Shown here piece by piece: positions 1,850 through 49,659 of a DNA stretch of 64,000 nt. This DNA comes from Apostichopus japonicus (Eukaryota > Echinodermata > Holothuroidea > Aspidochirotida > Stichopodidae). Numbering within the stretch: the first letter of the stretch is position 1; the number at the start of each line of letters is the position of its first letter. The notes beneath the pieces are model-generated. The model was not told where the DNA came from and did no database searches. It saw only the letters and a program-made list of their open reading frames with translations. The position numbers and the translations under genes are program-made. The DNA is taken from contig NC_092574.1 in NCBI RefSeq assembly GCF_037975245.1, positions 23,807,713-23,871,712 on the forward strand, read 5' to 3'.

Positions 1850-2165
1850 TAATCTGCAACGCCTGCCACATAATTTTACTTGTATGAGGGTCTTTGTGTG
1901 AACGCTGTACGATTAACTACACTGTAGACTTGCATGAACATATTTCAACCAGGGAGTGGTATAACAACTCCCTGTTTCCACACAGTGTTTCCACAAGAGC
2001 CTTATGGTGTTAAGAAGCTATACAGGCTGATTGTGGAGCCTGAGGTGGATTAACGTCCGTAGCAGGTCGATTATATAATCACAACACTTATAATCCATTT
2101 AATCACAACACTCACCTAGCTATAACGTACTACTGCTATAATTGGAGCCAATAAAGCAGATTATA
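1850..2165 (+). repeat. Dispersed repeat R1, copy a
   Basis: About 300 bp matching the reverse complement of 8122-8385. Shared landmarks in order are TCTGCAACGCCT, GAGGGTCTTTGTGTGA, GATTAACTACACTGTAGAC, CCTGAGGTGGATT and CAATAAAGCAGAT. The AATAAA-containing end suggests a retroelement-derived segment, perhaps an LTR or SINE piece, but no ends were defined. This copy carries a hairpin insertion at 1950-1974 that copy b lacks. Confidence 0.7.
1943..1981. mobile_element. Miniature hairpin insertion (CAGGGAG family), copy 1
   Basis: A 25-bp hairpin with ends CAGGGAGT and ACTCCCTG (1950-1974) is flanked by TTTCAAC (1943-1949) and TTTCCAC (1975-1981), a 7-bp duplication with one mismatch. The paralogous repeat at 8122-8385 (reverse strand) has exactly seven bases (TTTTTAA) between the same flanks GAACATA and ACAGTGTTT, so it is an empty site. 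Confidence 0.75.
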
Positions 2166-2183
2166 TGCATGGTATCAACAGCG

Positions 2184-3020
2184 ATACCACGAATACCGTA
2201 ACTCGATAATTTCTAAAGGAGGATTGAGTGGTCGACTGTATCAAAGGCTTACTTGAGATCTAGATAAAGACCCAAGACATTCTCACCGGTGTCTACGAAT
2301 ACAAAAGGGCACCTACAGTATCGTGACCTTGTCTGAAACCGAATTGAAAATCAAAGAGACAGTTGATTGTTGTCCAAGAACGGTCTCATACGTTTCTCAA
2401 TAGATCTTCCCAAGATCTTGTTAATGCAAGGCAGCGTGATAATTAGGCGGTTATTATCAGGGAGGGGTTTTTGATCCCCCTTTTTGAAAATAGGTGTAAA
2501 CTTTAGCAACCTTCAAGGCAACCGGATTAGTACCAGTGGTGAACACGAGGTTAAAAATAGGACAAAGAATTTAGGAGCAATGACATCGAAGACAGATTAC
2601 CATATTTTAGGTGGAATATACCATCGATACCAGGCGATTTTCCATCGTTCAAAGGAATTAATTTTGTTGTAGATTTCATCAGAAGTGGATGGGCGAAAGA
2701 AAGACAATATTTGGGGTTATACTGCAGGATGCATGAATTGCATAGGATTAGTGTCACTCCGAATGGCATGACTATATAAGTTTGTTTCCAATAGTCGAAA
2801 AATAGTTGTTGAAAGCATTAGCTATACCAATTTCATCAGTGATGGTACCATTGTCGTAAATAAAAATGGTAGGAGGCGTATTTCCTTCAGTGATCAAAAG
2901 CTCATTAAGGACTGACCAAGTTTCCTGAGCCGAGTACTGCTTAAACCCTGAATGATATTTTTGTAGTATGAAGACTTAGCCTGAATACTTTATGATCTGT
3001 ATTTGTCAAATTCGCTTTCC
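2184..3020 (-). mobile_element. LINE relic, N-terminal half of the reverse transcriptase
   Basis: Read on the minus strand through several frameshifts and stops, the block gives a run of LINE landmarks: NGTITDEIGIANAFNNYFSTIG, then NDGKSPGIDGI, then TPIFKKGDQ, then LPCINKILGRSIEKRM, then LYLDLK.AFDTVDHSILL, then SSYGIRGIA. This is the usual order of the linker and RT motifs 0-3. The catalytic YADD region is absent and the relic stops next to repeat R1, so it is a dead fragment. Confidence 0.85.
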
Positions 3021-4039
3021 TCTCTAGGGGATGGGGTGGGGGAAGGGGGGGGGTAATTGATATATTTACGGACAATGGTCCTTTTTGTGACTGACTGAAT
3101 TTTTAATTCCAGGTCAGTGTAATTCATGGTTTATATTTTGAGTTCCTAAACGGGACATTTTTAAAGGCATTGAAGACTCGCCCCAAACGGCGTGCCGCGA
3201 TCTGAAAAAGTTAACTTCCCGTTGCTTGCAAATGACGTTTTCTTCTTGTCGCTACAAAATGCAGACAGTAATGAAACGTGATACCTTGCTATCTTTTATC
3301 TAGACATGAGATGTTCATCGCCGCTATGTAAACTGTGTTGTGGGTATTCAATGACCGTAGCTGTATGTATTGACTGTACACTAGTGTCTAATTACCGACG
3401 GTAGCAAGCTGTGTGTGTATTTTCTGCAGGATCGATGGTGGTGTCTTATAACACTTCTGTTACCCCTCATTCGAAACTAGGTCAGATTACCGGCATGAGA
3501 CGTTTCTTTGTGCGCGAATCTTCACACCCTTTAACTCAAGGAAAGAATCGTGATTAGATATATTTAAAGAAAGAAAAAAGGGTGCTATAAGCATCATTGA
3601 CGTCCGTTGCAGCATAAACATAGGAAAAATCTGCCGAATCAATTGTTTGAAAGAAGAGAGCGATATCGCAACTTTTGGAAATCCTAACCATTGGTCTGTC
3701 TAGTTTGGTTCGAGTTAGGTGTCACATGGAGGTAAAAACAGACTCAATGGGTGTCAGTGCCACTGATAATGCCAAAATTAGCTAGTAAATGATCGCTTAC
3801 ATCGCAACTTACAAATTACCAGAGATTATCTGTGTTGTGCGACCGATTGGCAGGCGAACAAAGATATGGTCGATGGGAGTATACTAGAACTCTCAGTTAT
3901 AAGTCTGGTTGGCAAAGTACGGCGGTGTTAAGAGGTTGCACCTCATGAGATTAAAATAAGCTGTTAACTACATGCAGTAATAGTATTCATTTTTAAGGAG
4001 ATTGATGTCAAGATCTCCTCCAAATGTACACACTATATT

Positions 4040-4410
4040 TATTATTATTATTATTTAGGTTTACAGTCTTGTTCAGGGCCAAGGCCCTCTTACACGACTT
4101 AACCCTGGTCATTGGGAACTTTTCACACCTACACACCAAAGTGTGCACAATTCAATGAACCTCCCCTGGGGCACCATTGTGCACCACAACCACGTTTCCC
4201 CTGGGGGACTTCCCATATAGGGTGCAGCCACAAACCGGCGCACGCAACTATATTTACAAGTTACACTGGCAAGTCCCCATCTATACACCTGGATGAAGAG
4301 AGGCAATGGAGATAAAGTGCCTTGCCCAAGGACACAACGCAATGACTCGAACATGTAATCCTTAGATCACAAGTCCACTACCTTAACCACTTGACCACAA
4401 CGCCCTCTAC
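4040..4410 (-). mobile_element. tRNA-derived SINE with an (AAT)n tail
   Basis: On the minus strand the head reads GTTGTGGTCAAGTGGTTAAG (A-box-like), followed by ATGTTCGAGTC (B-box-like), the internal motif TCCTTGGGCAAGGCAC, a unique body, and an AAT-repeat tail at about 4036-4055. Such an order of pol III boxes, body and short-repeat tail is typical of SINEs. It sits directly beside a LINE endonuclease relic. The source tRNA is uncertain. Confidence 0.75.
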
Positions 4411-4499
4411 TTCACTATAGTCTTTAGTGACACTATAATGCAGACTCCAAAGCTTCAATGATATAGTGCTTAACATTTCCTTTAGGATCATGTCTGTAA

Positions 4500-5183
4500 C
4501 AGAAAACGAACTTGTAGCAGTTGTTGTTTTTGTAGTTGACTTGACTTCAAGCTAGAAATCTTCGACTTGACACGTTTGACACTGGCAATTATGACTGGAG
4601 CTATAGTTACATCTTTATTAAGTTTAATTTTACTAAATTTGTTCTTATCAACAAAAAAAGCCAGCACCCCACGGTTACGGTGGGCTGGGATACAAACTCA
4701 AAAGGCATAACCAGGCAAAAATATTACACATAGACTGGTTATGGCAGTAATCTATTTCAGAGAGCATTATGACATCAAAATTATGAATAAAAAAAAGGCA
4801 ACACCCCCACAGTTGGTGGGCGGGGGGGGGGGCGGGAGGGATACAAAATCAGAGGCATAATCAGGCAAATAACTACAGAAAGACTGGCTGTGGCCGGCAG
4901 TATAACCTATTTCAGAGAGCATCATAACATCAAAATTAGGAGAAAGGCAATCGAAAAAGTTCATGTGAAAAGTTAAGGAAGACAATACGTATGTTAAGAT
5001 GAAATACAGGCAAACCTTTGCCGCTTTCTGTGTGGCTGAAAGGATCATCATCATAATAGTGACAGGTGAATTGACTGTTTTCAGCTTCTTGTTAGCGATG
5101 TCTTCAACACAATTCCTACATTTATTTTCATTACTGAGGCGATAATTCATACTATTACCTATATCCCATATATGGTTAAGCAA
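4500..5183 (-). mobile_element. LINE relic, APE-type endonuclease domain, internally duplicated
   Basis: The minus-strand ORF contains FDVMMLSEIGYT, then SYLPDY, then CGGVAFFL, the LINE endonuclease pattern (FDII.LSET, LPGY, GGGVAIFV). Downstream, FFVDKNKFSKIK and TIAPVIIAS continue the domain. A segment of about 145 bp covering LSEI..GGVAFF is present twice in tandem (about 4660-4790 and 4800-4945), the second copy interrupted by a poly(G) run at 4822-4832. Not functional. Confidence 0.75.
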
Positions 5184-8121
5184 ATACTTTAGGCAGTCTT
5201 TTGTTCACTGCGAGAGAACATTCCTGGTGTTACACTTTTTTTTTCTTTGTCTTTATTGTAACCTTAAAAAGATGACTTAATGCAGACCTTATGTCGTGAT
5301 ATATCATAGTTCAGAAAAGAAGGGGTAGGGAGGGGCGGAGGGGGGCATATTTGGTTCTATAGCTATTCTCGTTATCAAGATATGCACCTTTAACATATGC
5401 TATATCGCTGGACTGCTCCTCAAGTAGTTTGGTGTTCGTGCACGTGTTTTAGTCTTGGGTGACATTTCTTAAAACTGTATTACCGTAACCTAACCATCCA
5501 TGGGACTTACTGGAATTGTTTGGAACAAAGGGGGGAAACATTAACAATCAGGCCTGATCAGAAGGGCTGCCAATTGTTCAACAAGTAGTAGCAACTAATT
5601 AACCCGTTAAAACATTACAGCTTCTTGATGAAAGGAATTTCGATTTGATTGTACCGTGACAAAAGAGGTGAAATTAGATGATTCCCGGTGTGACACTGTA
5701 TATACGAACTCCTCCCCTCCCTCCCCTTCCCCTTGCATCAGCAACATTTAACTCATGTATAACTCCCTCAACAGTTGCCTAGCTACAAAAACGGATCCTA
5801 AATCCAAAGATTCGGACACAATTAGTATATCATGGCGGCAAAATACTTCCAAACTTGCTACACATTTTTTCCCTTGGCATGGCGAATGGTATGTCAACGT
5901 GACCCTTGTCCAGCAGTTTAGCTAGCTGTTTTCATCTGCAGGAATGCTATTGGACTGGTGGGAGTAGGCGAGAGAGCGCAGCTTGGAATTTGGGACGTAT
6001 GTGACTATAAATGTCAAGTCAATTGACGCAGCATCTGCAACATGCTGTGCTGTAATGAGATTTGCATGTTTCGGTGGTGAGATGGTGAATACCTTCTGTC
6101 CGGGTTTCGTCCGGAAGACACTGTGCAAGCTTTTCTATTCTAGCTTTGATTTGAATATTTGATCGTTTTGCCCCTCCCCCTACAACCTCCACTTGGGCTG
6201 TATCCACGCTTTGATTTTTGTTTTCTGAAATGCCGCAGCTTCCGGAGTCGCTGCCCCACGCGACTCAACCAATGGCATTATGCAGTTGTAGAACAAGTTT
6301 ATGCTTTTGTTGCACTTAATTTGGTCTAAATTTGTCATATTTAGCACGCATAAATGGGCCACTCCCACTTAACGATTATTGTATTTGATAATCGTATTTG
6401 TCTCCCTCTATTCGGAGTGGCGTCTTTTCATTATAATTAATAAAAGGGAAATTCCGATGAGACACATGATTGTATAAAATATTTCCGGTGCTGTTAGTTG
6501 ATAACTACATTCTCAATATCTTGTCCCAAAATTGAGATATGTAGTTATTTGAATGTTAACAATTTTAAAAGATTTTTCTGGTGCCTAAGTTTAGTTGATT
6601 GCTGAGCAAAATTGCTGAACATTTTCTGAATCTAATTGTGAAACCACATCCTCATAGCATTGAGTATTGCCAATATATGAGATTTTTAAATTTAGTGATA
6701 TTTTTTAAAATGCATCTGGCAACAGCAGTGTGGATGATGTCATCAGGGCACTTCAGTTGAAAGAAAAATGTCATTGTTTTTTTTGTGAATTTTTCAATTA
6801 TTTATTCACACACATAATAAATAATTCTACGAAAGAGATACATTTTGATGAAATTCTAATTACAGAGAACTTTCACAGCTATGCAAATATAACCCTATGG
6901 ATATTCCAGGCATCCACAGAGTGAATGTCCAGAGGATTATACTGTAACTATTTGCCTTGTCAGACCAAGTCATATAGAACTGATGAGTATAGCAAGGTCA
7001 CATAGCTTTCATTAAACTGGTTTCATTATTGCCAAAGAGACAATAAACCACTCTCTGTAATCATGACTTAAAACACAGTTTTGGAATGGTGGTTGACTCC
7101 GTTTAGTATAAATCTATTAACATTTCCTATCATGTGGAATTGGGAATGATATGGCGCTTCACTGTTACCTTGTATCGGACGCAGTCGCTAGTCTGACCAA
7201 TTCCTATTCCGGGAATTGCTGTTTTAACTTAATCATTGTAAATTTCTTAGACGGGGCCATCCTGTGTCTTATAAACAAAACCATAGGTGTCCAGGTTCTC
7301 TCACCCAGTTGAGAAGCTGGTGGTCCATGTTTAATATACAATGGCCAACAGTGGCTGATTGGCTTAAAACGTTTGTTGACCAACCCCTAAAAGTTGTCAT
7401 GGGGCGATCTTATGGCACCCTGATCTGTTTTTAAAATCCAAGCATACCATGAGATGAGGGAGAAGAAGATTATTTTTAATATTTATTATCGAAGAGAGAG
7501 GTTCATTTTTCCTTTTCTCCGGAGAGGTTTTCATCTCAGAATCCCTTATCGGTATTACATAGCCTCTGGTTCTTTTGGCTAGAAAGTTCAAGTCTAAAAA
7601 TGTGATTTAGATATTTTCTTTACACATTTTGTAATATTGTATATGCACCATATAACCTCAATGCACTACACTCTTGAAGTTGCTGCACCGGACAAAGTTG
7701 TTGTATACCGTACTATAGAGCGAGTTTTCCTAAGTTTGGAAGAGTGACCGAGTAACCTTTTAAAAATGTTTACAACTCGGTCACTTACTACTAGAGATGA
7801 CGATTCCTTCCTATAGTAAGTTTGAACTTACCTGTTGAAGCTGATTACCTATTGGTAAATTGGATCTCTAACATCTCAAGTATCCAGTGTTCTGAATCTC
7901 ATCAAAGAGAACTGTTAATATGATTTCTTTCAAATGGACCGGTGAGTCGATTAAACCTTACTGCACATTGTGTCGGGTAGTTTGGATCCTGGACATTTCA
8001 ATTTCCAATGTATACAAACGCGATCGCGGGACGCAAATCGACTTGATTCCGCACCACCCCAGAAGAGGGGAAAATATCCAACAACTGATTAGCTAAGCTT
8101 CACTTTTAATTGTTGTAACCT
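5184..8121. other. Gene-free stretch
   Basis: No supported coding region. Short ORFs at 5922-6368 on the minus strand have no recognisable homology. A perfect 11-bp inverted repeat, AGTGACCGAGT (7743-7753) with ACTCGGTCACT (7775-7785), could fold into a hairpin with a 21-nt loop. No 7-bp duplication flanks it. Confidence 0.6.
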
Positions 8122-8385
8122 TTAAAGATCTGCTTTATTGACTCCAATTATATGACGCTATAGTTAGGAAAGTTTTGTGATAACGTTGTCGACATGCCAA
8201 GGTCGTAAATCCACCTCAGGCTCTAAGATTAGCCTATACGTATGCTCTTAACACCGTTAGGCTCTTTGTGTAAACACTGTTTAAAAATATGTTCATGTCT
8301 ACAGTGTAGTTAATCATACAGGGCTCACACAAAGACCCTCGTACAAGAAAAAAATGTGGAAGGCGTTGCAGACTAATTGGCCAAG
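8122..8385 (-). repeat. Dispersed repeat R1, copy b (empty site)
   Basis: Reverse-complement paralogue of 1850-2165. At 8281-8287 it has seven bases where copy a has a 25-bp hairpin plus two 7-bp flanks, so it is the unoccupied version of the locus. Confidence 0.7.
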
Positions 8386-9385
8386 GGAGGTCATTGTACG
8401 ACCGAGGCAGGTCGATTACGTAATCTAAAGAAACTTTTCCATGATAGCGTGCTATAGTTGGGGTCTATGTAGCAGATCTTTTAGGAGTCAATGACCATTT
8501 GCTATTATTGCAATTATGTATTGTTGTTGCTGTCACTCTGTGATATATTACTGAAGTTCAGCAATTTATCTTATCTGACTAGCCACTGTATGTACTTTGC
8601 CACCTGTCCGACACATTGATCTCACTGGCATACCGACAGGGTCAACTCCTGACCCCTCTGGACTCCTGCCAAGTCTGATTGTCAATAATGCTTACTATTT
8701 ACCATTATTGCATATGAGTAGTCTAGATCTTGGATGCTGTGCAAGAGAGACATTAAAATAATAGAAACCCACTACCATATGTCTGTTTCTTAATTCATTT
8801 TACTTATTATTTGCGCGGTGCAACATAACCAACACACTCCATTACAGTTAGTAGCTGTTGAGTTTGATCTTAGTTCACAGTAGCATTAACTGCTGCCATG
8901 CTGGTTGCCATGCTGGTTGCCATAGTAACCGGTGACCTATGAGACCCATTTATTACTGTTGTAGAGAGTATAGGGAGGCATGGGGAGGCTATAATGTGAG
9001 TCTCTGGCAGACATACATTTTCCAGCAACATTTAGTATCTTGTTAGTCTTTGTTCTCATTCTCATTGCATTTTATTGTCACCAATTATTGATTTTGTTTA
9101 GATACTTCTATAGTTGACAACCTGGGTCCACCTTCTTCGATCACACTCTTTGGCCTACACAATACACTTATTTACAGTTCACCAAGGCCACACAAACATT
9201 TCAAATGTATCAGGTTTCAAGGATAAATCATCGAGAAGAATATAAGAGCCTAATTAAAGCTTCCAGAATGCATTTGCGCAGCGGACATGACAGACCCCCC
9301 TACTGCGATCCAACTTCCTGGAGCAGTTGGGGGTTTAGCTAGTCAAAGTAGGTTACTGCAATGAACCATATCACGAGTTAGGGGG
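8386..9385. other. Gene-free stretch
   Basis: No supported gene or mobile element. Contains a small tandem duplication of CATGCTGGTTGC at about 8896-8925. Confidence 0.5.
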
Positions 9386-9510
9386 TAATGTAATGTAAAT
9401 AAAATCTTATATAGCGCACTACGCTATATTTACGGGTATATATTGAGATGGAGCAGTGTGGAATATTTTTGTCTTCAATAAAAATTTCACATTGTTTTCA
9501 GGCCTCGACA
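9386..9510 (-). mobile_element. LINE 3'-end fragment
   Basis: Shares TTTTTGTCTTCAATA and a following TTTCAC.TTGTTT with the better preserved LINE 3' end at 13130-13160, and contains the motif ATATAGCGCACTACG often seen in LINE/SINE 3' tails of marine invertebrates. Very short and decayed. Confidence 0.4.
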
Positions 9511-10500
9511 AATTCTCTCTCTTCCAAAAATCTTAGCAGCAACAACAGCAAAATTGTCTCAAAGCTCCTTAAATTGTTCTATACTTTGCGAATTATGACT
9601 GTAGGAAAATGCCTTAAGAAATAATTAAGGAGATGTTTTGCCATCTTAAGTGTATTGGTATTCTTCACGTTGTTGTGTTGACGAACCCTATTCTACCGAA
9701 CCGTTGCTGGCCTAGACAACATAAAATTGCTAACAGGCCCAGCCATGTTTGTTCAAGTTGTCCCATAATCATAAACGTGACGAAAGTCGAACGTTACTTT
9801 TAAGGCCTAGCTATGCTGAAACTGGTGGAAGAGACTACACAAATTGAGATCAACAGCCGATCCAAACAAAAGCTCGTGAACTGATCACTGCCAAACTAAG
9901 ACCATTTTACACAATTATTTCGCATTGAGATTGGTCATAGTAAAAAATCAACTAGATCAACGGAAAACGTCCAATAGAACCGCTGTAATACAAATAGTAC
10001 ATTTTGATGACATCACAGACCGCCCACTGTGGTCCACTCCTGGAAGACTTACGGAAGTTACGGGTACAAACCAGTTAAAAGAATTGACTGGTAGCCCTTA
10101 GAAGTTACCTTAAAAACGATAAACAATTTCCCAAACCATGTTTTCCAAGTATGAGTACGCTAATATTGCGTTTAACACAAACAAATTGTTAATCGTTTAG
10201 GATGGATATTTCAAATATACTTTGAACAGTAGCGAACGTGACGTCATCTGGGCAAGTAGAGATTACGACATAACCCACGCTGCGTACAGTTCCTACTGAA
10301 GTCACGACAAAAACCGTGTTTGAATACATATGTTTTTAATTTTTGGTGAAATTTCTTATAATTTAAATATGTTTTAAAAAAAATCGGTTAAGCCGTCATA
10401 TATGTAGTGCATCAGGTGATTTTGTGGTCTTAATGTAACACAAGATAAGTTTGAACAGCAGGTCTCATCGTTGTTTACATTTCGCTCTTGGAGCTGGGCC

Positions 10501-10531
10501 AGCTTGCAGCTGTTTATAGCTCCATGCTTGC
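10501..10531. mobile_element. 17-bp insertion with 7-bp duplication (TGGAG..CTCCA family)
   Basis: Between AGCTTGC (10501-10507) and TGCTTGC (10525-10531) lie 17 bp ending CTGTTTATAGCTCCA. R2 copy b has only AGCTTCC (13701-13707) at this place. The same 15 bp occurs inverted inside a 29-bp hairpin at about 14185-14213, with ends TGGAG and CTCCA, so this looks like a truncated relative of that hairpin. Confidence 0.55.
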
Positions 10532-10571
10532 AGGTACCACCCTCAACAAAGCAGGTTAACGAAGGCCTTGT

Positions 10572-10678
10572 GTGGAACCAGGGAGTTGTTATGAAACTTT
10601 CCAGGGAGCTGCTACTCTAACCAGGGAGTTGTTATGGAAACATCTCCCTGCTCTAACGTACCAGCTCCCTGATGAAAC
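10572..10678. mobile_element. Nested miniature hairpin insertions (CAGGGAG family)
   Basis: An inner hairpin at 10622-10650 (CAGGGAG..CTCCCTG) is flanked by perfect CTCTAAC copies (10615-10621, 10651-10657). Removing it and one duplicate restores an outer hairpin whose arms CAGGGAGCTGCTAC and GTACCAGCTCCCTG pair at 13 of 14 positions (10602-10671). ATGAAAC occurs at both 10591-10597 and 10672-10678. The whole block is missing from R2 copy b, which reads GTAGAACAATGCC near 13749-13760, against GTGGAAC and ATGAAAC at the edges here. Confidence 0.75.
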
Positions 10679-11521
10679 AATGCCTCAGCAATCAGTGCCA
10701 GGCTTTTTGATGATGTAGTCATTCGCATGGATGCGTGAATGAAAAGGGAGAGAAAATAATGTTATTTTGCTATTCCTGACCCTGAAAAAGAGGAAAACTA
10801 TGAACTGTGTATAGAATGTGGATTAGTGCGATGGGAAAGGACAAATTCGACATTGATTCAGCCATTTTTAACCTTTCCATGTTCCAAATACTTTTCAAGT
10901 AGTAAAAAAGCTTCCTTTACTGTAAAGATGATCCGTGAATCTATTTCAGCGAATGGGAAGAACGGTTTATGAACTGTGGTTTGAGTGTGAGAGTGTATTA
11001 TGTGCAATGATAATGTACGTACCAGTTTGGGCATGGTTTATAGGTAGGAAAAGAGAGTGCTAACTTCAAGTCGCTCGTTTTGCATATTTGCCTGCATTAC
11101 GTCATTCAAGTTCACCAAAATGATGCGTTCGAACAAACGGTGCATATTGGTGAGAAACTGGTGAATTTGCAAACCAGATTTCTACAAGAAGAAGAATTCG
11201 TCGAATGGGGACAATTTTCACATGGTTAGAAAGAGAAAAATTGGAACTATGAGGACAATGTATCAAACTCTTCCACCAGATAATTCCTTTAAGACTACTT
11301 TACTCGTGTTTGTTGATTTATCTCCCCGATACAAATGGAGTGTTTGATTATATTTCAATGTTCTCTGTAGGTAGAATTTAAAAAATGCAACTCTATTGTA
11401 GAAATATTATTTCCTTTGTGGATGAATGATTGAATTGTTAGAAAGAGAAACCAAAAGACATTTCCCGCTCAGTAGACCTTATGACATCTATTCTCGAGGA
11501 CGAGAAATGACAAAAGTATGG

Positions 11522-11998
11522 TCAGGAAGATGTTTCTAGTACTCCCGGTATTCGCTTTATTAAGTAACTCATTTCTCTCTGCATGAATGTCTCTCTAAAA
11601 GCTACTTGCCACACCTTAAATACAAATACGAAATGATTGATTACTATACTACTGTACGTACTTCCCCAGTAAAACAAATTAAAAGGTCTCTTCTTTCTCA
11701 AACTCCTCATCAGATAATAACTCCAACAATTCATAATGAACTTCTTCAATCGCATCAAATTGCCTTTCAGTGTCATTTGCAAATTACTAAGTTCTTTCAT
11801 ATATAGTATCAGGTATAACTTCCTCCTAAGTTGAAACAAGTTGATTTCAACGCAGTCAAAGTCCTCGTCAATTGTCAGTTGTGAATTTTCTTCACTTTTT
11901 TTTTTTAAATTTTCTGCTATCTTTTTTCTGCCATTTCGAAACAATTTAAGTTCTAATCCAGTTTTAATTTTTAGAAACAAACTCGCTTTGACAACCAT
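11522..11998 (-). pseudogene. Degraded ORF, possibly a BEL/Pao-type gag remnant
   Basis: A 158-codon open frame on the minus strand. Its first third (IAENLKKKSEENSQLTIDED) is plausible protein, but after about residue 60 another frame looks more protein-like, giving FDAIEEVHYELLELLSDEEF and then EKEETF. That acidic helical pattern recalls the DUF1759-type gag region of Pao/BEL LTR elements; this is a guess from pattern only. The sequence CGGTATTCGCTTTA occurs on both sides (11547 and 12037). No other domain, promoter or splice context was found. Confidence 0.25.
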
Positions 11999-12224
11999 GA
12001 CAGAAATAGAGACAAGAAGAGTATTCTCTTGCTCTCGGTATTCGCTTTAAAGCCCATTACAATTCCAACCTTTAACCCATGGCCGGACGAAACCCTCATC
12101 GCATGTGACCCCCTCCCCCTCTCCCCCCCCCCCCCGCCCAACGACCAACCATATCAGGCCTCAGTACAAGCCTGTATAGAACTCCTTCCAGATATACTCA
12201 AGGCGGAAAATGTCTATACAGCAA

Positions 12225-12272
12225 ATCCTACCACAGGAGCTGTTACTCTAAGTAGCAGCTCCCTGATCCTAC
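12225..12272. mobile_element. Miniature hairpin insertion (CAGGGAG family), copy 3
   Basis: A hairpin with arms AGGAGCTGTTACT and AGTAGCAGCTCCCT (within 12232-12265) is flanked by perfect 7-bp repeats ATCCTAC at 12225-12231 and 12266-12272. The arms closely resemble the outer hairpin at 10602-10671. Confidence 0.75.
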
Positions 12273-12771
12273 ACAACAAAACTGGTGAATACTGTCACTG
12301 TGCAAGGATCTCTGGCCTGGAGGCCCGCAAAGGGGTAACAAAAATTATTCACTTGTAAGATTATACTGTAATTTTATTATATTTAAGATTTTAAATAACT
12401 GCACCTGTCCAACCCCAGTCACCTCGTTGTTGCCAGGTGCATTTGCAAAGTATAAAAAGAAAATGTAAAAAAAATAAAAGCCAACATAATATCTTCACAA
12501 TACAAAATGCTATGAAGGATTTGGTTTTGCCGAACCCATGAGGAATCATAACATTTTTAGCATTTTTGCGAAGCAATCAACTTCTTCCACTAGAAGATAC
12601 TTTCAAAGGATGACTTGAGGGATGAAATTAAATTTTTCATATGTTGGAGAACATGAAAATAACACTGCTGTTAGTCCAGGTTGCATTCCTATATACCGTT
12701 TTGAATATTGAGAAATGAGCTCTTAAACATCTGAAGTTCATCAACTAAACGGCTGGACTACTTACTCTAAC

Positions 12772-12772
<1 letters not shown>

Positions 12773-12837
<65 letters not shown>
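12773..12837. repeat. (TAA)n microsatellite
   Basis: About 20 uninterrupted TAA units. On the minus strand this is the TTA-repeat tail directly following the LINE 3' end at 12838-13185, as is usual for LINEs with microsatellite tails. Confidence 0.95.
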
Positions 12838-12840
<3 letters not shown>

Positions 12841-13185
12841 TGGACATTTATAATGCACCAGTATCCGTCAAAAAAGACGCTCATGGCGCAGTGACAACAA
12901 ACAGTGCGACAGCAAAAAAAAATAAAAAAATAGTAAACATAGTACAAGGCAAAAATGCAAGCAAAAATGGGCAACAGTGAACATTTAATTAAACAGTTTT
13001 CATCAGATGAGTCTTGAGAAAGCGTGTAAAAGAAGCAAGAGATGGACTGTGTTTTAAGTGTTCTGGGAGGCTGTTCCACAGAGAAGGGGCAGCAGCAGCA
13101 AAAGCTCTTTTGCCCCATGATCGATTTGAGCGAATTTTTGTCTTCAATATAAGTTTCACTTTGTTTGACACCAGAATAGCCCTTT
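12838..13185 (-). mobile_element. LINE 3' terminus: end of ORF2 and 3' UTR
   Basis: The minus-strand ORF reads KTKIRSNRSWGKRAFAAAAP, then SLWNSLPEHLKHSPSLASFT, then RFLKTHL, the common C-terminus of L2/CR1/Jockey-like ORF2 proteins. The 3' UTR follows (GATACTGGTGCATTATAAATG) and runs into the TTA-repeat tail. It is 5' truncated. The ORF end is intact over about 60 codons, so this copy is among the younger ones here. Confidence 0.85.
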
Positions 13186-13219
13186 AAATTAAGTAAAGTT
13201 ACGGAAGGACACTAGCCTT

Positions 13220-13777
13220 TATGACATCACAGACCACCTACTGTGGTCCACGCCTGGATGACTTACGGGTGGGTACGAACCAGTTAAAAGAATTGTCTGG
13301 TAGCCATTAGAAGTTACCTTCAAACACGATAAACAATTTTCCAAAACATGTTTTCCAAGTATTGGAACGCTAATATTGCGTTTGACAGAAACGAATTGTT
13401 AATCGTTTAGGATGGATATTTCAAATATACTTTGAACAGTATAGCGAACGACGTCATCTGGGCAAGTACAGATTACGACAAAACCCACGCTGCATACAGT
13501 TCCTACTGTATAGTCACAACAAAAACCGTGTTTGCATACATATGTTTTTAATTTTTGGTGAAATTAGATATGTTTTTAAAAAATCGGTTAAGCCGTCATA
13601 TATGTAGTGCATCAGGTGATTTTGTGGTCTATATGTAGCACAAGATAAGTTTGAACAGCAGGTCTCTTCCTTGTTTACATTTTGCTCTTGGAGCTGGGCC
13701 AGCTTCCAGGTACCACTCTCAACTAGGCAAGTTAGCGAAGGCCTTATGTAGAACAATGCCTCAGCAATCAATGCCAG
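13220..13777 (+). repeat. Dispersed repeat R2, copy b (empty sites)
   Basis: Direct-orientation paralogue of 10006-10701, abutting LINE 3' fragments on both sides. It lacks both small insertions of copy a (AGCTTCC at 13701-13707, and GAACAATGCC near 13751). Confidence 0.8.
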
Positions 13778-13854
13778 GTGAGAGCGTTTAAAAGAAGCAA
13801 GAGATGGACTGGACTGGTGTTTTGAATGTTCTGGAAGGCTTATTCACAGAGAAG

Positions 13855-14249
13855 TAGTCTTGGCCAAGTTGTTTGTAATAATTTTTTTTTTCTCGCGTGC
13901 AAACTGTACATGCCTGAGAGCAGGGAGTAATTCCATAACAACTCCCTGCTGAGAGTATGTTTCTGCCTACCACGAATGTGCTTGCCAACTGTATTTTACA
14001 TGTGCGAAGATTTGTCCGATACAAACGTCATTGACATTTCTCTAAAGAGGGGGCGTGAACTTATATGCAAACCACCTAGTATCAATCTAAAGCGTTGCCG
14101 CGGGCGTTCTCTTGGCAGTACAGAAGATACGGGGGAATAACTTTGTGAAAAAAAGAAAGGTACACTAGGATGTACCATAGAGCATGGAGCTATAAACAGT
14201 TTATATAACTCCACGGCTGCACATACTAGGGTCTTTATACAAGACTATA
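13855..14249. mobile_element. Mutator-like MITE inserted in the LINE fragment
   Basis: A segment of about 395 bp flanked by a perfect 9-bp duplication ACAGAGAAG. It starts TAGTCTTG and ends CAAGACTA plus TA, giving an 8-bp terminal inverted repeat. A 9-bp duplication is the usual target size of Mutator-like elements. No transposase ORF, so it is non-autonomous. It contains the hairpin insertion at 13914-13955 and the 29-bp hairpin at 14185-14213. Confidence 0.6.
13914..13955. mobile_element. Miniature hairpin insertion (CAGGGAG family), copy 4
   Basis: The clearest member: a 28-bp element at 13921-13948 with ends CAGGGAGT and ACTCCCTG, flanked by perfect 7-bp repeats CTGAGAG at 13914-13920 and 13949-13955. 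Confidence 0.8.
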
Positions 14250-14310
14250 ACAGAGAAGGGGCATCAGCAGCAACAGCTCTATTGCCCCATGACCGATTTG
14301 AACAATTTTC

Positions 14311-15712
14311 ACACAGAAGTCATTTCTTGTGTGATCTCATGAAACTGCCATTTGCGTGATATGTTTGCAGAAGTTCTGACAAGTAGAAATGGGGAAGTTC
14401 TAACGAAATAGCGATATGTGAAAAACAATATTTTAAAAATAATTCTGTCTTTGATCGGGAGCCAGTGTAATTCTCTCAGGATATGAATGCATAAACCATT
14501 AGGTCAGTTCTTCATGAACGCCAAATAACTCGAACCACCTATCCTCTATATGCCTATACATTAATTGGATAGTCGTATGATGGTCATGTGATCATTACGG
14601 TTTTGCATATATCGTCGTTGCCATGGTGTTTATGATGATCTGACATTAACCCAATAGTTCGACTTCGCACTGTCAGGCAGTTTACTCTGTATCCATACAA
14701 TACCATACAGTATGATAGTTTGTGTATTTTCCTGTACCTAAAGCTGCTGATTTAGGTCTCTGGATTTTGTAGTTAGTACACAAGAACTATATTGCGACTA
14801 CCGTTGCATAACGCATTTGTGCTGTTTTGTCCGAATTAATTGCAAAATCTACACGTTATGCACATTAATGATAATTTTGTCGTGATGTCTAGAAGTTCAT
14901 CAAGTCTAAATTCCCGTCCCTTTAGCGTACATGAATAACACCGATCACATGCTCTGTACACTAAAAATAGGGGATATTTGGCAACTTATTGTTATTTTAT
15001 CCGGTAGGAAGCTTCAAACTAAACTAGAATAATCCCCGGGTAAAATACTCAGAGGGAGATTATATACACTGTCACATCGGCTTAGAAAATGTGATCAAGT
15101 GTCAACAGTTTTATACACAGTATACCTTTAACCAGATCATGCATAGTTGGCATATCTATATCCCTTTCCAATGGACCCGTGATATTTCGCTGGACGTAAC
15201 ATAGTCATGGTCATACGGTTATATATGTCTCGATATAAGGGGACTGATGCTGAGAAAGTGCATAAAGTTGTTTGGTTCAAGTGCCCAAGCTAATATCCAG
15301 TGCCTGACTTTCGTTAACATAAAAAAAGGTACCATATTATATTACATTCAAGGGCTCAGAACGTCAAATTCAGAGTGAATAAAAGCGAACTTTTCAAGGT
15401 GAAGGCAGACTTTCAATATTTTCACTGATTCCTTTAATAACTTATTCTTTATTCGGTCTGTATAGCACCCACCTGATCCTCCCCTCCCCCTCCCCACTTT
15501 CCATCGTCCTCGTCGATCCTGATTGTAGAATGTGCAATGGAAATCGCCGGCCCTCCTGAACAAACACACACACAACAGAACGAATTTCCATTTGCATTAC
15601 AAAAGATGAATTGGATAGTCAAATATGAAAATATTAAAATCGATAGGGAAAATTTAAAAGCGGTAACAACCTTTAAAATAAATTAATGTTAACAGAAAAT
15701 GTAGGCTTGATA

Positions 15713-15715
<3 letters not shown>
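14311..15715. other. Gene-free stretch
   Basis: No supported coding, RNA or mobile feature. Open frames are short and composition-driven. Confidence 0.5.

Positions 15716-15808
<93 letters not shown>
15716..15808. repeat. (AT)n microsatellite
   Basis: About 90 bp of uninterrupted AT dinucleotides, followed at about 15840-15865 by a decayed continuation (GATATATAGATATAT). Confidence 0.97.
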
Positions 15809-15811
<3 letters not shown>

Positions 15812-15865
15812 AGAAATAGAGTAGAAAGGGGCAAGAGAGAGATATATAGATATATATATATATAT

Positions 15866-17028
15866 TTAGATTGAGAAAATGAGAAAACTATCGATTTAAC
15901 ATACCCTGTCTGGGCAGCTACGTCTTGCAGCCCAAATATAGTGCGACGGTCAACCGGATTGTAACCGGGCTGTTACACGATCACCGTTCACAATCGACTG
16001 GTCTCCGATGCCTTAATCAGGATTCCGTTAGTCAGGAAGATGAAATCACCAAAAAACGCTAGATCGCCAGATTCTGATAGTATATATTATTGTAAAACAC
16101 CTGATAAATATTGGTCGTTATTTCCCTTATTTTATATCTCCTGTTCATTCAATGTACGGAGCTCAATATCATAACTGGAATCCAGATACTTAATATATGA
16201 AAATGGAACCGTATACGATTGCTATTTAAAGACTGATGACACGGAGCGCGCGAGCAAACCTGAAATCGATTTGATTTCGTGGTTAACAACTGGTAAAGCA
16301 TAAATGGATGCAAAAGGTCAAACGTTCACGATATATGACATCTTCTATATGATCACGAGTTACGTATAACGGAATGATATCGAAGCTCACAAATATTAAT
16401 AATGCTGGTTATCGCAATGTGTTATAACCACAACTGGTACATCGTTTACGTGTTGGCTGTGGTATAAGGGAAATATCGTTCTGATGTATACGCAAAGTCA
16501 ATATGTCTCTTGTGTACCTAACTGATACATATCAAATATCAGAAATAAAAAAAAAATAAACAAAATGGTGGTCCTATTGCTTATCGACATGGCTGAGAGA
16601 AGCTGGGTCTTGATCGATGTGAGGGTTTAATTTATTTTCTTAAACTAGCTTGTACTAAACTAGCATGTATTAACTAAATTGTGCCTTTCTTGGAACGATA
16701 AAGTGACACATATTCATTTTTATTGAGATGAGGCAATTTGTTCAATAACCTGTGACGTCACATGTGAAATATACATTGCTTCTTGGTATATATGAAGTGA
16801 ATTTTTGATTTCGAGAGAGTGACGTACCGGTATGATGATGATCTTACCAGGGAGTTCTTATCCGGGGGAGGATCCCATATACCCCTACCCCTTCATGGCC
16901 ACACTCGTCATTCGAACATTTTCATGTTCGCCTGCATGCAGCGTGTCTAATATTCATACCCCTATATAGCCTATATACCAAAATCAGTTGGAATGAGTGA
17001 CGATGAAATAATAATGATGATAATATAT
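15866..17028. other. Gene-free stretch with a lone CAGGGAG half-hairpin
   Basis: No gene seen. CAGGGAGTTCTTATCC at 16848-16863 resembles one arm of the miniature hairpin family, but no CTCCCTG partner or flanking duplication is visible. Confidence 0.45.
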
Positions 17029-17236
17029 AAAGGTTGAAAGAAAGGTTGAAAGAAAGGTTGAAAGAAAGGTTGAAAGTAAGGTTGAAAGAAAGGTTGAAAG
17101 AAAGGTTGAAAGAAAGGTTGAAAGAAAGGTTGAAAGAAAGGTTGAAAGTAAGGTTGAAAGAAAGGTTGAAAGAAAGGTTGAAAGAAAGGTTGAAAGAAAG
17201 GTTGAAAGAAAGGTTGAAAGGTTGAAAAGGTGAAGA
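17029..17236. repeat. 12-bp minisatellite, unit GGTTGAAAGAAA
   Basis: About 16 units of a 12-bp repeat, some with GTAA in place of GAAA. Because 12 is a multiple of 3, all frames stay open and give artificial proteins (KERL on the plus strand, FFQP on the minus strand). A GAAA tract follows. Not a gene. Confidence 0.95.
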
Positions 17237-17278
17237 AAGAAAGAAAGAAAGTCAATTTCCTCCATCTATATAGGCTAT

Positions 17279-17304
17279 AACGTATACAGTATACTGTATA
17301 CGTT
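17279..17304. repeat. Perfect 26-bp palindrome
   Basis: The left half AACGTATACAGTA is followed without spacer by its exact reverse complement. It could extrude as a cruciform or be a dyad site. It lies just after the minisatellite. Confidence 0.8.
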
Positions 17305-17886
17305 TTTCGACAGTCTTCCCCCTCCCGTCGCGACCTCACTGCGATGGTCCTCTTCCCCTACTCGTGCAATTATGCCCCGTCTCGCGCCCGTTTAGTGTCC
17401 ATTAATTAATGACTGGAGCGATTCAACTTCGCCCAGTTATAGTCACGAATTGGAAGCAGATCAAGGCGGTTCATTTATAGATAAACGGTTAGAAGAGATC
17501 AATATCTGGATGTTGTGTTTGTTGGAAGGTTTATAAATACGCATTTGCTTAAAGAATAATTTTATTACCCCAAATATATCCGTACTTTAAACACTTATAT
17601 CTCTAACAGATTACAGTTGATCAACACAGTGGTTTACTTATTATTATATATAGTCTTAAAACATCAAGTGCACGATGCACGCAATAAAACTTTACTAACT
17701 GCAAGCGATGTACCGGCCGGAACCAGATTTTTACGTATATAATTCGACTGGATTTATCCGGCTACACCGGAGTTTTATCCGAGACAAAATGAAATCAGTA
17801 AAAACAAAAGAGACTTCAAATGTGGAAAACTTCTCTTTCTACATAGGCTATGATCAAAATGAAGTAAAAAGTAAGATAAGATTTCA

Positions 17887-17929
17887 TTTCATTCAGGGTG
17901 AGTTCCAACTCCCGGCTCCCTGATTCATT
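17887..17929. mobile_element. Miniature hairpin insertion (CAGGGAG family), copy 5
   Basis: A 29-bp element at 17894-17922 starting CAGGGTGAGTT and ending GGCTCCCTG, with imperfect pairing. It is flanked by TTTCATT (17887-17893) and ATTCATT (17923-17929), a 7-bp duplication with one mismatch. Confidence 0.65.
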
Positions 17930-33185: not shown

Positions 33186-35350
33186 TCAAAAGTTAATAAA
33201 AGAATGAAAGCAGGTTTGTGGAACAACACCCTGAATAAATATGGCAGCCATATAAAGGAAAGAATTTTTAAAATGTACAGTTCGAAATTTTGTCCTATTT
33301 CTCAAATTATAACTAGTCTGTTGAAGAAGTGATTTCAGATCGTTATGGAGTGGGTGTTTCTCGTCTCTATGAATTTTATGAGAAAGCCTTTCAAAATCTC
33401 TCATGGCTGCATCGTTAACTTGTGTTAAAAATCTAGGCTAAAATTTTGTCACAGTTAATGCAAGGACGCTATATTCTTTTCTGATCCTTTATACAAGTAA
33501 AAATGGTACCAGGCCGGAACAATATGAGGTAAAATATAGGTATTAGAAACTTCCATTCTTACGTCTAACTTAAAATATGGCACAATAAAAGATAAAGTAG
33601 AAATGATATAATAAACCCTTTTTAAAATTCTTGAAACATGACACGTAAAATTAAGCTTATTGTCTATACACCCCCCCCCCCCCCAATACATCGTGTGTTC
33701 AGTACGGTCAACTCACGGACTCCTCGCTTTGGTGGTGAGTATGCCTTCATATTTCATATTGGAATTTTAGATTTCTTGAGGTTCAGAAGTAAGTTCTTTT
33801 TATCACAGACAGTAACAACATGAGATACCACAGATTCATAATTAATTTGATCCACATTATGTGAGGATTTAGATAGTTTAACAGAGATTGCTGTGTCGTC
33901 TACATATTTGATGACAGAACAATTACATTGCGATCTTATTTCGTCAGTGTAAACTGTAAATAACAGTGCTGATAATGGACCTCCCTGGAGCACTCCAACG
34001 CTAATTTCAGATTTGTAATATGAACCCTCTTTCAATTTAATTTGTCTTGACCACCCTTTCATGAAATCAGCCGGCCAGTGCATAATCCAGGGATCTTCAA
34101 CAAAGGTATTTAAATCATGAAGTAACTGATAAGGTATAGTACGGTATTAAAAGCACTGGAAAATCATCAAGAAAGAGAACTTTAGATGTGCTTGTGTGTT
34201 CATGATTCAGAGTGGGAACAATATTATGGACTAATGTGAGGACGGCATCCGTACAAGAAACCCCCTTCCAGTGGCGTAGGAAGGTACTTTTGAGTGGGGG
34301 GGGGGGCTGAAGACTGATGGCCGGCCTGGGGGAGGGGCCTAAGGGGAGGGGTGTGCCCCTCCCCTTTGGATTTTTTTTTTTTGCATTTCCAGGTGGCCTC
34401 TGATGCAATTTGGTGCAATATAGCACACTTCAACCCACCCACTCCATTTTGTATATCATTTTGCATTTTGCAATTTGGTGCTCCAAATGAGATTTTTTTC
34501 TCATTTGGAAATGAAAAAGGGGTTTTCTGACTTGCGAAGCGGGGGGGGGGGGGGCGGAATGATACTTCCGCCCCTCCATATTTTTCACTGCAGCCCCCCG
34601 GTTCCTACGCCCTTGTCGGCCCCTTCCTATAAGCACCCTGACCATCGGTCTACATGTGTATCAATGGCATTTGTTAAATATGGTTATAAAATCTTCTGGC
34701 AAGATCTATGGGTCTGAAGTCATTAACCGAGGAAGGTGTTTTAACCTTAGGTATTGGGGATGTTACGGTATTCTTACAGAAGCTGGGTATATGTGACATT
34801 GGTGTAAACGTTCATTTAAAAATATGTGTAAAAGTACCAGCTTGTTCACCAGAGCAAAACTGAAAAAAAACACCAAGGAATTTGGTCACAGTCCGATGAA
34901 ACACCATTTCCGACTATCTTAAGTTGTCTTTCAACTTCGTCCACTGAACCCAAGGAGGTTCGGCCTACTGATCAGTTAAGTATATGATCACATCTTTCAT
35001 AACTGCTGAATTGAATCCTCCAATATGATCACTTAGTTGCCCACCGAGTTCTTTAGATATAAAACTGTTTCTTTTCAGGTTCTCGACCTGTCTTGAATAA
35101 GTCCCATGATAGGCTGTTATAGTTCGAACTAATTGCGCTGGAGCCTAGCTCACTTCAGTGTTTGTGAACAAGTTTGTTGATTTCCCTCTGTATCCGATTT
35201 CTCTTAGCTTTGTCCCTTGAATCAATTCCCATTAATCTGCTCCTTCACTAAAGCTTCATCCTGTTATCTGTTGAAAGTCGGTCGCTTCATCATATCAGAT
35301 ACAAATGTTACTTTCTTCGGTACAAAGAAATTGCTGACGAATTTAATGTA
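33186..35350 (-). mobile_element. Degenerate LINE (RT domain and C-terminus)
   Basis: In minus-strand order: AKRNRIQREINKL (about 35200); KNTVTSPIPK, then KTPSSVNDFRPI (about 34760); SCTDAVLTLVHNI, then SKVLFLDDF (about 34190-34260); GVLQGGPLSALLFTVYTDEI, then VIKYVDDTAISV (33880-34000); CIDNKLNFTCHVSRILKRVY (33580-33670); and HPLHNDL, then TSYNLRNRTKF (33290-33350). This is the normal order of a non-LTR RT. The YVDD catalytic motif is intact, but frames are broken, with a poly(C) run at 33671-33684 and an inserted DNA element at 34269-34618. Confidence 0.9.
34269..34618. mobile_element. hAT-like MITE inserted in the LINE
   Basis: Starts CAGTGGCGTAGGAAG; the right side reads GGTTCCTACGCCCTTG, its imperfect inverted repeat. 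The octamers CCCCCTTC (34261-34268) and GCCCCTTC (34619-34626) match at 7 of 8 positions, consistent with an 8-bp hAT duplication. LINE coding sequence resumes on both sides. Contains a GGGGAGGGGTGTGCCCC block like the element at 18205-19247, and two poly(G) runs (34296-34306, 34541-34554). Confidence 0.7.
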
Positions 35351-48291: not shown

Positions 48292-49659
48292 CTATGCTAT
48301 ACTAGTCTCCTGCTGACTCTCAGTTGCAGTGTGTTGCTTAGAATCTGTATCATTACTAGTTTCATCTTTGTCATCTTCGTCCTTCATTCCTCTCTCTGCT
48401 CCTTCATCCAATGAGGGTTCCTCTCCGGCCAAGTCACTCTCCGCAGAGGGGGTAGCTTCTTTAGCTAAAACTGGTTCAGTTTCTTCAGAATTCACTGGAT
48501 TTGAAGTACTGGCCTGGTTAACTACTACAGTAGTAGGGTCAGTGTCTTGAGCAGATTCACTCACTTTTCCTATAACTACACTAGATGATGCACTTGTACT
48601 GTCTTCTTCTTTCACAACATCCTGTAAAATCTCTTCTCCTTTGTCCTTCTGAGAATCAGAGAATTTAATGTCTCTGGGATCGTCCACGTTACTCTGTGCT
48701 TCTACAACTGTCTCTTCTATTGCACGTGTATCTTTAGCTAAATCCGTTGGCAGTTCTAGACTGGTGTTACTCAAAGCTTGTTGACCTTTGACCTCAGAAG
48801 AACTGTCCATGGTTTCCATTTCTGTCATATCATTATCGACAGGCTCTGATTTTATGACAGGTGTTTCCTCCGCTTGGTTAGGCACATTTGATATAGGAGG
48901 TAAATCATCTTCCATTATCACAAATATCTTGGAAGGACCAGAGTCTTCCTCTGCTTGTTCCATTTTAACAGGAGCAACATCCTCTACCAGATTAGAGGTA
49001 TCATCCTTCACAAGATCAGAGGCAGATTCCTCTCTGAGTCCAGGGGTTACACCCTCTTCAAGTCCAGGGATTACACCCTCTTCAAGTCCAGGGATTACAC
49101 CCTCCATGGCTTCAGGGGTTGCACCATCTACGAGTCCAGGGATAGCACCCTCTGTAAGTCCAGGGAGAACACCCTCTACAAGACCAGATTTAACATCCTC
49201 TTCCTTTCTCTTGGTAGCGGTAGTGTCCTCTGCAACATCAGAGGTAGTACTCTCTGCCATGCCGGAGGGAGCACCCTCTTGCAGACCAGAGATGACACCC
49301 TCTACTAAATTAGAGGCAGTGCCCTTAACTACAGATGGCTGTGAGCTCATCTCTTCTGATGCAGATTCTTTCTTAATTTCAGTTATTATTGATTCATTCT
49401 TGATATCTACTGTTGGTTCTTCCATAATCTCAGATAGGGGGGGCTCTTCCTTTATAACCTTGGTTGCATCACTCTTTATTTCATCGGTGACTTTCCAAGT
49501 TGGGTTTAATATTTCTTCAACGGTTGGTTTGTTGTCTTCCAACTCTGTGCCACCATCTTGTGAATCCACTTCGTTGTCAGAGTCTAAACCTGGAAGGGTC
49601 CCATCTGTCATTCCAGGGATCCCGTGGAAACTGCCTGAAGATTCTCCAAATACAGAACT
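48292..49659 (-). CDS. PCF11: PCF11 last exon: acidic tail with octapeptide repeats
   Basis: Residues 1882-2336 of the fragment, stop TAG at 48292-48294. Starts SSVFGESSGSFHG after acceptor TTTTCATTGCAG. Contains NPTWKVTDEIKSD, then VIKEEPPLSEI, then a run of 8-residue repeats (48970-49315), then a Glu/Asp/Ser/Thr-rich end. SUMO-like VKEE/IKEE motifs recur. The human tail is much shorter (about 70 aa) but also rich in KEE motifs. Confidence 0.93.
   Translation of the reverse strand, partial: SSVFGESSGSFHGIPGMTDGTLPGLDSDNEVDSQDGGTELEDNKPTVEEILNPTWKVTDEIKSDATKVIKEEPPLSEIMEEPTVDIKNESIITEIKKESASEEMSSQPSVVKGTASNLVEGVISGLQEGAPSGMAESTTSDVAEDTTATKRKEEDVKSGLVEGVLPGLTEGAIPGLVDGATPEAMEGVIPGLEEGVIPGLEEGVTPGLREESASDLVKDDTSNLVEDVAPVKMEQAEEDSGPSKIFVIMEDDLPPISNVPNQAEETPVIKSEPVDNDMTEMETMDSSSEVKGQQALSNTSLELPTDLAKDTRAIEETVVEAQSNVDDPRDIKFSDSQKDKGEEILQDVVKEEDSTSASSSVVIGKVSESAQDTDPTTVVVNQASTSNPVNSEETEPVLAKEATPSAESDLAGEEPSLDEGAERGMKDEDDKDETSNDTDSKQHTATESQQETSIA

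Follow-up and report, generated by a model that had tools for sequence, protein, structure and literature searches.

Short CAGGGAG hairpins in the genome of the sea cucumber Apostichopus japonicus as probable excision scars of a P-like transposon

The closest described counterparts of the hairpins analyzed here come from the P superfamily of cut-and-paste transposons. In Drosophila, the P transposase makes one cut at the element's 3' end and another, on the opposite strand, 17 bp inside it, a stagger that has been called unusually long. P elements have internal transposase-binding sites, and their target-site duplications (TSDs) are 8 bp long (PMC7776569). After excision in Drosophila, the 17-nt tails at the donor site are joined by short microhomology, bluntly or with templated insertions, or one tail is lost down to the 8-bp repeat, and one identical junction was recovered 14 times (PMC2895639). 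Galileo, another Drosophila member of the superfamily, has TSDs that are mostly 7 bp long and a palindromic target, GTANTAC (PMC4168063). Excision scars are usually studied singly, in laboratory crosses, whereas the genome described here appears to hold thousands of them. The stretch in question, called the window throughout, comprises 64,000 nucleotides of A. japonicus (GCF_037975245.1, contig NC_092574.1, positions 23,807,713 to 23,871,712) with a G+C content of 38.6%. In it, an initial annotation had described five short hairpins with ends close to CAGGGAG..CTCCCTG and 7-bp flanking repeats, and had taken the hairpins for inserted elements.

We suggest, with a probability of roughly 85%, that these hairpins are excision scars of a cut-and-paste transposon that belonged to the P superfamily or cut in a P-like manner. 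The hairpin is most likely not itself the inserted element, contrary to the initial annotation. This is because the arms stop at the same base 20, the joins show microhomology or filler, one arm can be lost while the 7-bp repeat is kept, and the whole matches recovered P-element excision junctions. Most likely, each hairpin consists of two transposon ends, neither longer than 20 nt, whose junction has 1-4 shared nt, is blunt or contains filler. In the process we propose, the transposon would have inserted via a 7-bp staggered cut at sites resembling [G/C/A]TNNNA[C/G/T]. On leaving, its transposase would have placed the cut in one strand some 20 nt inward from each end, so that the donor site would be left with two like single-stranded tails of 20 nt. 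Host end joining of these tails, by microhomology annealing, blunt joining or filler, would then yield a TSD, a shortened end, a shortened inverted end and a second TSD. Observed directly are the 7-bp TSDs, the target motif, arms that stop at base 20 at the loci we read, microhomology where ends of the A type (defined below) are joined, and equivalent scars in this genome that have P-type ends and 8-bp TSDs. From arms of up to 20 nt we infer the 20-nt cut and, as the parent transposase was not found, we infer the membership in the P superfamily as well. The tails were presumably 3', as in P, and full-length insertions presumably once occupied these places.

The family is abundant. In the genome searched (671,581,487 bases in 35 contigs), the pattern CAGGGAGN{5,30}CTCCCTG is found at 3035 places and the reversed pattern, which served as the control, at 50. 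At wider spacing, CAGGGAGN{31,61}CTCCCTG, there are 119 matches against 10, and those shown with their letters include side-by-side scars, one arm plus a scar, a C7 dispersed repeat and chance cases. Flanking repeats were counted in 68 copies with readable flanks, which gave 55 clusters once near-copies of one scar in repeats had been merged. Exact direct repeats are 7 bp long in 29 clusters and 4 bp long in one, while none are of 5, 6, 8, 9 or 10 bp; from the observed base composition, 0.11 exact repeats would be expected by chance per 55 clusters. When one mismatch is allowed, 44 of the 55 have a 7-bp repeat. An earlier count without merging had given 31 of 59 exact at 7 bp. A subset of 30 clusters, picked from the genome-wide pattern list by their ends alone, contains 14 with an exact 7-bp repeat and 23 with at most one mismatch. 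Thus, the hairpins do form a real family with a constant 7-bp duplication, other repeat lengths are not equally common, and the staggered-cut transposition process that had been proposed on this ground is upheld.

The duplications also define a target. When both strands of the 44 clusters are considered, 76 of 88 TSDs have T at position 2 and 77 of 88 have A at position 6; the first base is G, C or A and the last is C, G or T, which gives the palindromic motif [G/C/A]TNNNA[C/G/T]. The initial annotation knew of no named family with this combination of features. However, 7-bp duplications of the GTANTAC type are known from Galileo, which shares with the CAGGGAG family the TSD length, a palindromic target, T2 and A6 (PMC4168063). 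The sea cucumber consensus is looser, being fixed mainly at T2 and A6, and the comparison covers the TSDs. Three hallmarks of the P superfamily are present, namely a TSD of 7 or 8 bp, a palindromic target motif, and remnants of both ends between the TSD copies.

The build of the hairpins was read at 45 of 50 listed places; the other five, all near-copies of a single 40-bp scar that lies in a C1 repeat, were left out. Of the 45, 41 are accounted for by two types of end, A (CAGGGAGTTGTTATGGAAAC) and B (CAGGGAGCTGCTACTCTAAC), which show small variants, and the four with other ends were set aside. Each hairpin starts with a prefix of one of these ends and continues with a second prefix in inverted orientation; some hairpins also contain filler. 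The typed hairpins measure 24-40 bp, so the annotated range of 25-34 bp was too narrow. The 41 A and B sites comprise 15 different hairpins of type A and 10 of type B, and at least three pairs of sites are near-copies of one scar. The joins share 1-4 nt in 24 sites, are blunt in 7 and carry filler in 10. Filler-free A joins overlap by at least 2 nt in 17 of 22 cases, compared with 17% under a null that weights all joins of arms of 7-20 nt equally and in which recurrent hairpins are non-independent (p = 8e-10). With two near-copies removed, the figure is 15 of 20.

Types A and B contrast in their longest form. The blunt B palindrome of 40 bp (20 + 20) occurs at 32 places, 18 of them exact and 14 with one mismatch (reversed control, 0). 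Four of these were read with their flanks (L077-L080) and have their own 7-bp TSDs, CATAGAT, GGAGAAG, CTCTAAC/CTCTGAC and GTGTAAC, three exact and one with a mismatch. The corresponding blunt A palindrome of 40 bp occurs nowhere in the genome, with up to one mismatch allowed. Both arms have the tip AAC; the complementary GTT is present twice in arm A and is missing from the B 20-mer. The joins lie at GTT in 14 of the 17 A sites that have a full arm, which there joins an arm of 9 or 12 nt with an overlap of 3. We suggest that the A 40-mer is absent and the B 40-mer present because the AAC tip can anneal to GTT in A and has no such partner in B, as tail-to-tail joining predicts. This account was devised to fit counts that were already known and did not predict them blindly.

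Complete arms were studied in loci selected for holding the full 20-mer (20 A loci and 20 B loci). Where a full arm of 20 nt has no clear second arm (L037, L047, L055, L056, L082, L088 and L092), there is no common sequence past base 20. In other loci an arm has been lost wholly or nearly so and both copies of the TSD are kept: the 20-nt arm is followed by 6 nt and the TSD (L050) or by CCTG and the TSD (L085), and at L094 the arm leads straight into the TSD. At L037 the 20-nt arm is followed by 18 nt of filler and the TSD. Extra arms, arranged head to tail with a 19-bp period (CTCTAACAGGGAG), are found inside scars at independent sites (L083, 51-109; L084, 51-98; and L086). A repeat at L055 (about 160-301) has 21 other matches of 70-89% identity, 12 of which begin at the inner edge of the 20-nt A arm or just within it and the rest further in; it seems that another old repeat abuts the arm there. 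The neighbouring sequence at L056 has one other match, a weak one.

These junctions have much in common with those of P excision in Drosophila, including a TSD on both sides, two shortened inverted ends, joins by microhomology, bluntly or with templated filler, and the loss of arms (PMC2895639). The Drosophila junctions differ in that they derive from 17-nt tails and 8-bp TSDs in laboratory repair at one locus, whereas those of the sea cucumber have complete arms of 20 nt and 7-bp TSDs, with hairpins at thousands of places in an assembly.

The same genome holds P-type elements with hairpins of their own. At locus L022, a P-type transposase match (PF12017) lies in an element with the end CATAGAGCTTAATA and the 8-bp TSD ACCGAGAA. 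Hairpins of the form CATAGAG..CTCTATG number 91 against 49, a weak excess that is inflated by a tandem array on C5. We fetched 17 of these sites, picked by eye from the hairpin list for resemblance to P ends. Exact 8-bp repeats flank four of them (L099, L100, L106 and L108), and 8-bp repeats with one and two mismatches flank one and four, respectively; L097 and L098, among the latter four, are copies of each other. The hairpin at L100, with its 8-bp TSD, consists of two prefixes of the L022 element end, 14 and 8 bases long, and the 38-bp forms read as 18 + 20. Hairpins of the form CACTGAT..ATCAGTG occur at 416 places against 43, and the two that were read (L004 and L030) are flanked by 8-bp repeats, of which one is exact and the other has a mismatch. 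Their ends resemble those of the P-type elements in L017, L020 and L021, and are similar to the L017 ends without being identical. P-type ends thus leave scars of this sort in the genome, with a TSD length that goes with the family. The L022 element resembles the CAGGGAG family in having hairpins with its exact ends and 8-bp TSD (L100) or with related ends (the others), with arms of up to about 20 nt; unlike that family, it has another end sequence, another TSD length and a parent that is present. At L021 (2596-2640 and 7940-7970), in a P-type element with CACTGATC ends, the 8-bp CCTCATTG adjoins an inverted end, an arrangement that looks like an aberrant transposition product.

The parent of the CAGGGAG scars is likely rare. 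There are 12 matches to PF12017 and 45 to PF21787 in the genome, several of the latter with long open frames, and none among the loci read or compared by position could be tied to CAGGGAG ends. For 11 of the 45 PF21787 matches, those on the contigs compared (A places; B on C3 only), no typed 20-mer lies within 380 kb. Facing pairs of 20-mers separated by 100 bp to 20 kb are absent from the first 100 listed of 175 A places and from the first 100 listed of 381 B places. The B pairs in the latter set comprise four abutting (40 bp), one facing and spanning 77 bp, two head-to-tail and one outward-facing. Scanning the loci above 2 kb and the window for long elements yielded three unconvincing pairs, of which one is made up of two scars in a tandem repeat and the other two have ends that differ. 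Long P-type frames stand in apparent pairs at C19:10287233 and 10313262, with identical scores, and at C3:19630435 and C17:23631930, with flanks 98.8-98.9% identical; these may be P elements that were active recently, or duplicated genes. The copies in L119-L122 are 98.8-98.9% identical, each by a 628-aa open frame, and a CAGGGAG scar-like hairpin at position 319 of L119/L121 flanks both copies of that frame.

Several points weigh against the excision reading. The complete arms are of 20 nt, not 17 as in Drosophila P, and the polarity of the tails cannot be read from the scars. The microhomology excess of the B joins alone is not significant (3 of 9, p = 0.25). Of the 55 clusters, 11 lack a 7-bp TSD at up to one mismatch. 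Among the 17 CATAGAG sites fetched, a clear 8-bp TSD is lacking in seven, two of which show a 7-bp repeat with one mismatch, and another site has an exact repeat of 9 bp. For the extra arms in L083 and L084, where the TSDs are intact, we can offer no account other than templated filler, since simple joining does not produce them. An intact parent with CAGGGAG ends was not found in the part examined: two P-transposase loci (L117 and L118) lack such ends in the 5.2 kb read of each, and a third P-type transposase, present in two copies (L119-L122), runs past the fetched stretches, the element ends lying beyond them. Finally, a few hairpin sequences recur (7 + 7 of 41, some being copies of one scar), as those of a mobile mini-element would.

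This recurrence bears on the best of the alternatives, in which a P-type transposase acting in trans mobilizes the 40-bp palindrome as a minimal element and the shorter hairpins are internal deletions of that palindrome. The 18 exact B 40-mers favor it too, as does the fact that a long parent is not seen among the listed A and B places. However, we consider it improbable. The A 40-mer is absent though its supposed deletion products abound, an arm is wholly or nearly lost at L050, L085 and L094 with the TSD intact, and a unit of 40 bp would lack the internal transposase-binding sites of P elements (PMC7776569). The repeated recovery of one junction in Drosophila P repair (PMC2895639) means that recurrence by itself does not demonstrate transposition. 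The view of the hairpin as a mini-element in its own right is rejected on the missing A 40-mer and the one-arm scars. A family of miniature inverted-repeat transposable elements (MITEs) does not fit either. Though MITEs are likewise short and non-coding, with inverted ends and TSDs, the scars have no fixed internal sequence beyond the ends, their join varies by site and one arm may be absent; 25 different hairpins (15 A and 10 B) among 41 sites, together with the one-arm sites, do not amount to a homogeneous interior.

A somewhat weaker alternative is that the scars belong to another superfamily, for example hAT, that leaves long remnants of its ends. The ends of hAT elements often begin with CAGGG, as do those described here, and no cognate transposase was identified for the scars. 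However, hAT TSDs are 8 bp long, and none of the 55 clusters has an 8-bp repeat, exact or with one mismatch, so hAT is rejected. hAT elements are not known to leave end remnants of 20 nt. Two further observations count against such an origin: the target motif has T2 and A6 in common with Galileo (PMC4168063), and in this very genome the same scars arise from P-type ends, there with TSDs of 8 bp. We regard this origin as unlikely.

Somatic or programmed excision is very unlikely. In such a case, the parents would still be in the germline and a muscle-derived assembly would show only the excised sites. The paper on what is probably this assembly does name longitudinal muscle as the source (PMC10344927), and an intact parent was not found among the listed places. 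However, one scar, with the TSD GTTATAG, is present in six copies of a dispersed repeat on C1 and C2 (L074, L090, L091, L093, L095 and L096), and its junction was therefore inherited before the repeat spread. Most scars also look old since their TSD copies have diverged, with a mean of 0.07 mismatches per bp in 25 of the 30 clusters chosen on ends, those with at most two mismatches. Age and inheritance thus seem to apply to most of the scars and speak against excision that is purely somatic. Palindromes arising by chance, or a simple repeat, which ends of only 7 bp might suggest, are refuted by the control counts and the excess of exact 7-bp repeats over the chance expectation.

In the window, all five hairpins stand where the initial annotation had placed them, with the 7-bp flanks it had given. 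Under the excision reading, the features are as follows (window positions; no strand is assigned to any of them).

1943..1981, family A excision scar: TSD TTTCAAC (1943-1949), two-arm hairpin of 25 bp (1950-1974), TSD TTTCCAC with one mismatch (1975-1981)
10572..10678, probably three nested events, as we reconstruct them and their order:
nested part 1, arm 10579-10590, one-arm A scar, the arm lying between GTGGAAC and ATGAAAC
nested part 2, 10602-10621 and 10658-10671, B scar between the ATGAAAC copies at 10591-10597 and 10672-10678
nested part 3, 10615..10657, inner A scar within the B arm: exact TSD CTCTAAC (10615-10621 and 10651-10657), hairpin 10622-10650, the target being bases 14-20 of the family B arm
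12225..12272, family B excision scar: exact TSD ATCCTAC (12225-12231 and 12266-12272), hairpin 12232-12265 with a mutated left terminus
13914..13955, family A excision scar: exact TSD CTGAGAG (13914-13920 and 13949-13955), hairpin 13921-13948
17887..17929, probable scar with atypical arms: TSD TTTCATT/ATTCATT (from 17887 and 17923) with one mismatch, hairpin 17894-17922

As had been noted, the ends at these sites are generally near CAGGGAG..CTCCCTG. The exceptions are a degenerate left end at 12232 (CACAGGAG) and the hairpin at 17894-17922, which is the least typical. When pairs of CAGGGAG and CTCCCTG in the window at most 60 bp apart are taken with one mismatch allowed, exact flanking repeats (lengths of 3-11 bp) are found twice at 7 bp and once at 3 bp. 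The stretch 10572-10678 is probably best read as a one-arm A scar, followed by a B scar in its right duplication and then, at CTCTAAC within the B arm, by a further A scar. This leaves over TTTC at 10598-10601, beside the B scar. At locus L038, two scars are separated by three copies of ATGTAAC. From these two places, it seems that the elements targeted their own duplications and ends again.

What is unusual here is the number of scars, the complete arms of 20 instead of 17 nt, the scars inside scars, and the lack of an intact CAGGGAG element in the part examined. A fuller history can be put forward tentatively. A P-superfamily lineage with 7-bp duplications and a 20-nt rather than a 17-nt cut may have swept the genome and then removed itself almost wholly, so that only some 3000 scars are left, which would record its ends, its target rule, the rules of end joining and scars within scars. 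No description of such scars was found in the open-licence PMC literature, in the titles and opening lines of abstracts among the matches listed.

The scars would be a natural archive of the past jumps of a transposon that may be gone. The rules of germline break repair in an echinoderm, including the microhomologies used, the amount of filler and the frequency of tail loss, could be measured from them without an experiment, and the 20-nt distance from end to cut can be tested against P transposase. The repeat-borne GTTATAG scar offers a way to date scars. Repeat annotation may overlook such scars or misread them as tiny MITEs.

Elsewhere in the window, long open frames of 460, 442, 609 and 339 aa lie at 48292-59900 on the minus strand, none with a Pfam match at E 0.001. 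A reverse transcriptase fragment (PF00078, E 3.2e-09) is found at 33754-34083, also on the minus strand.

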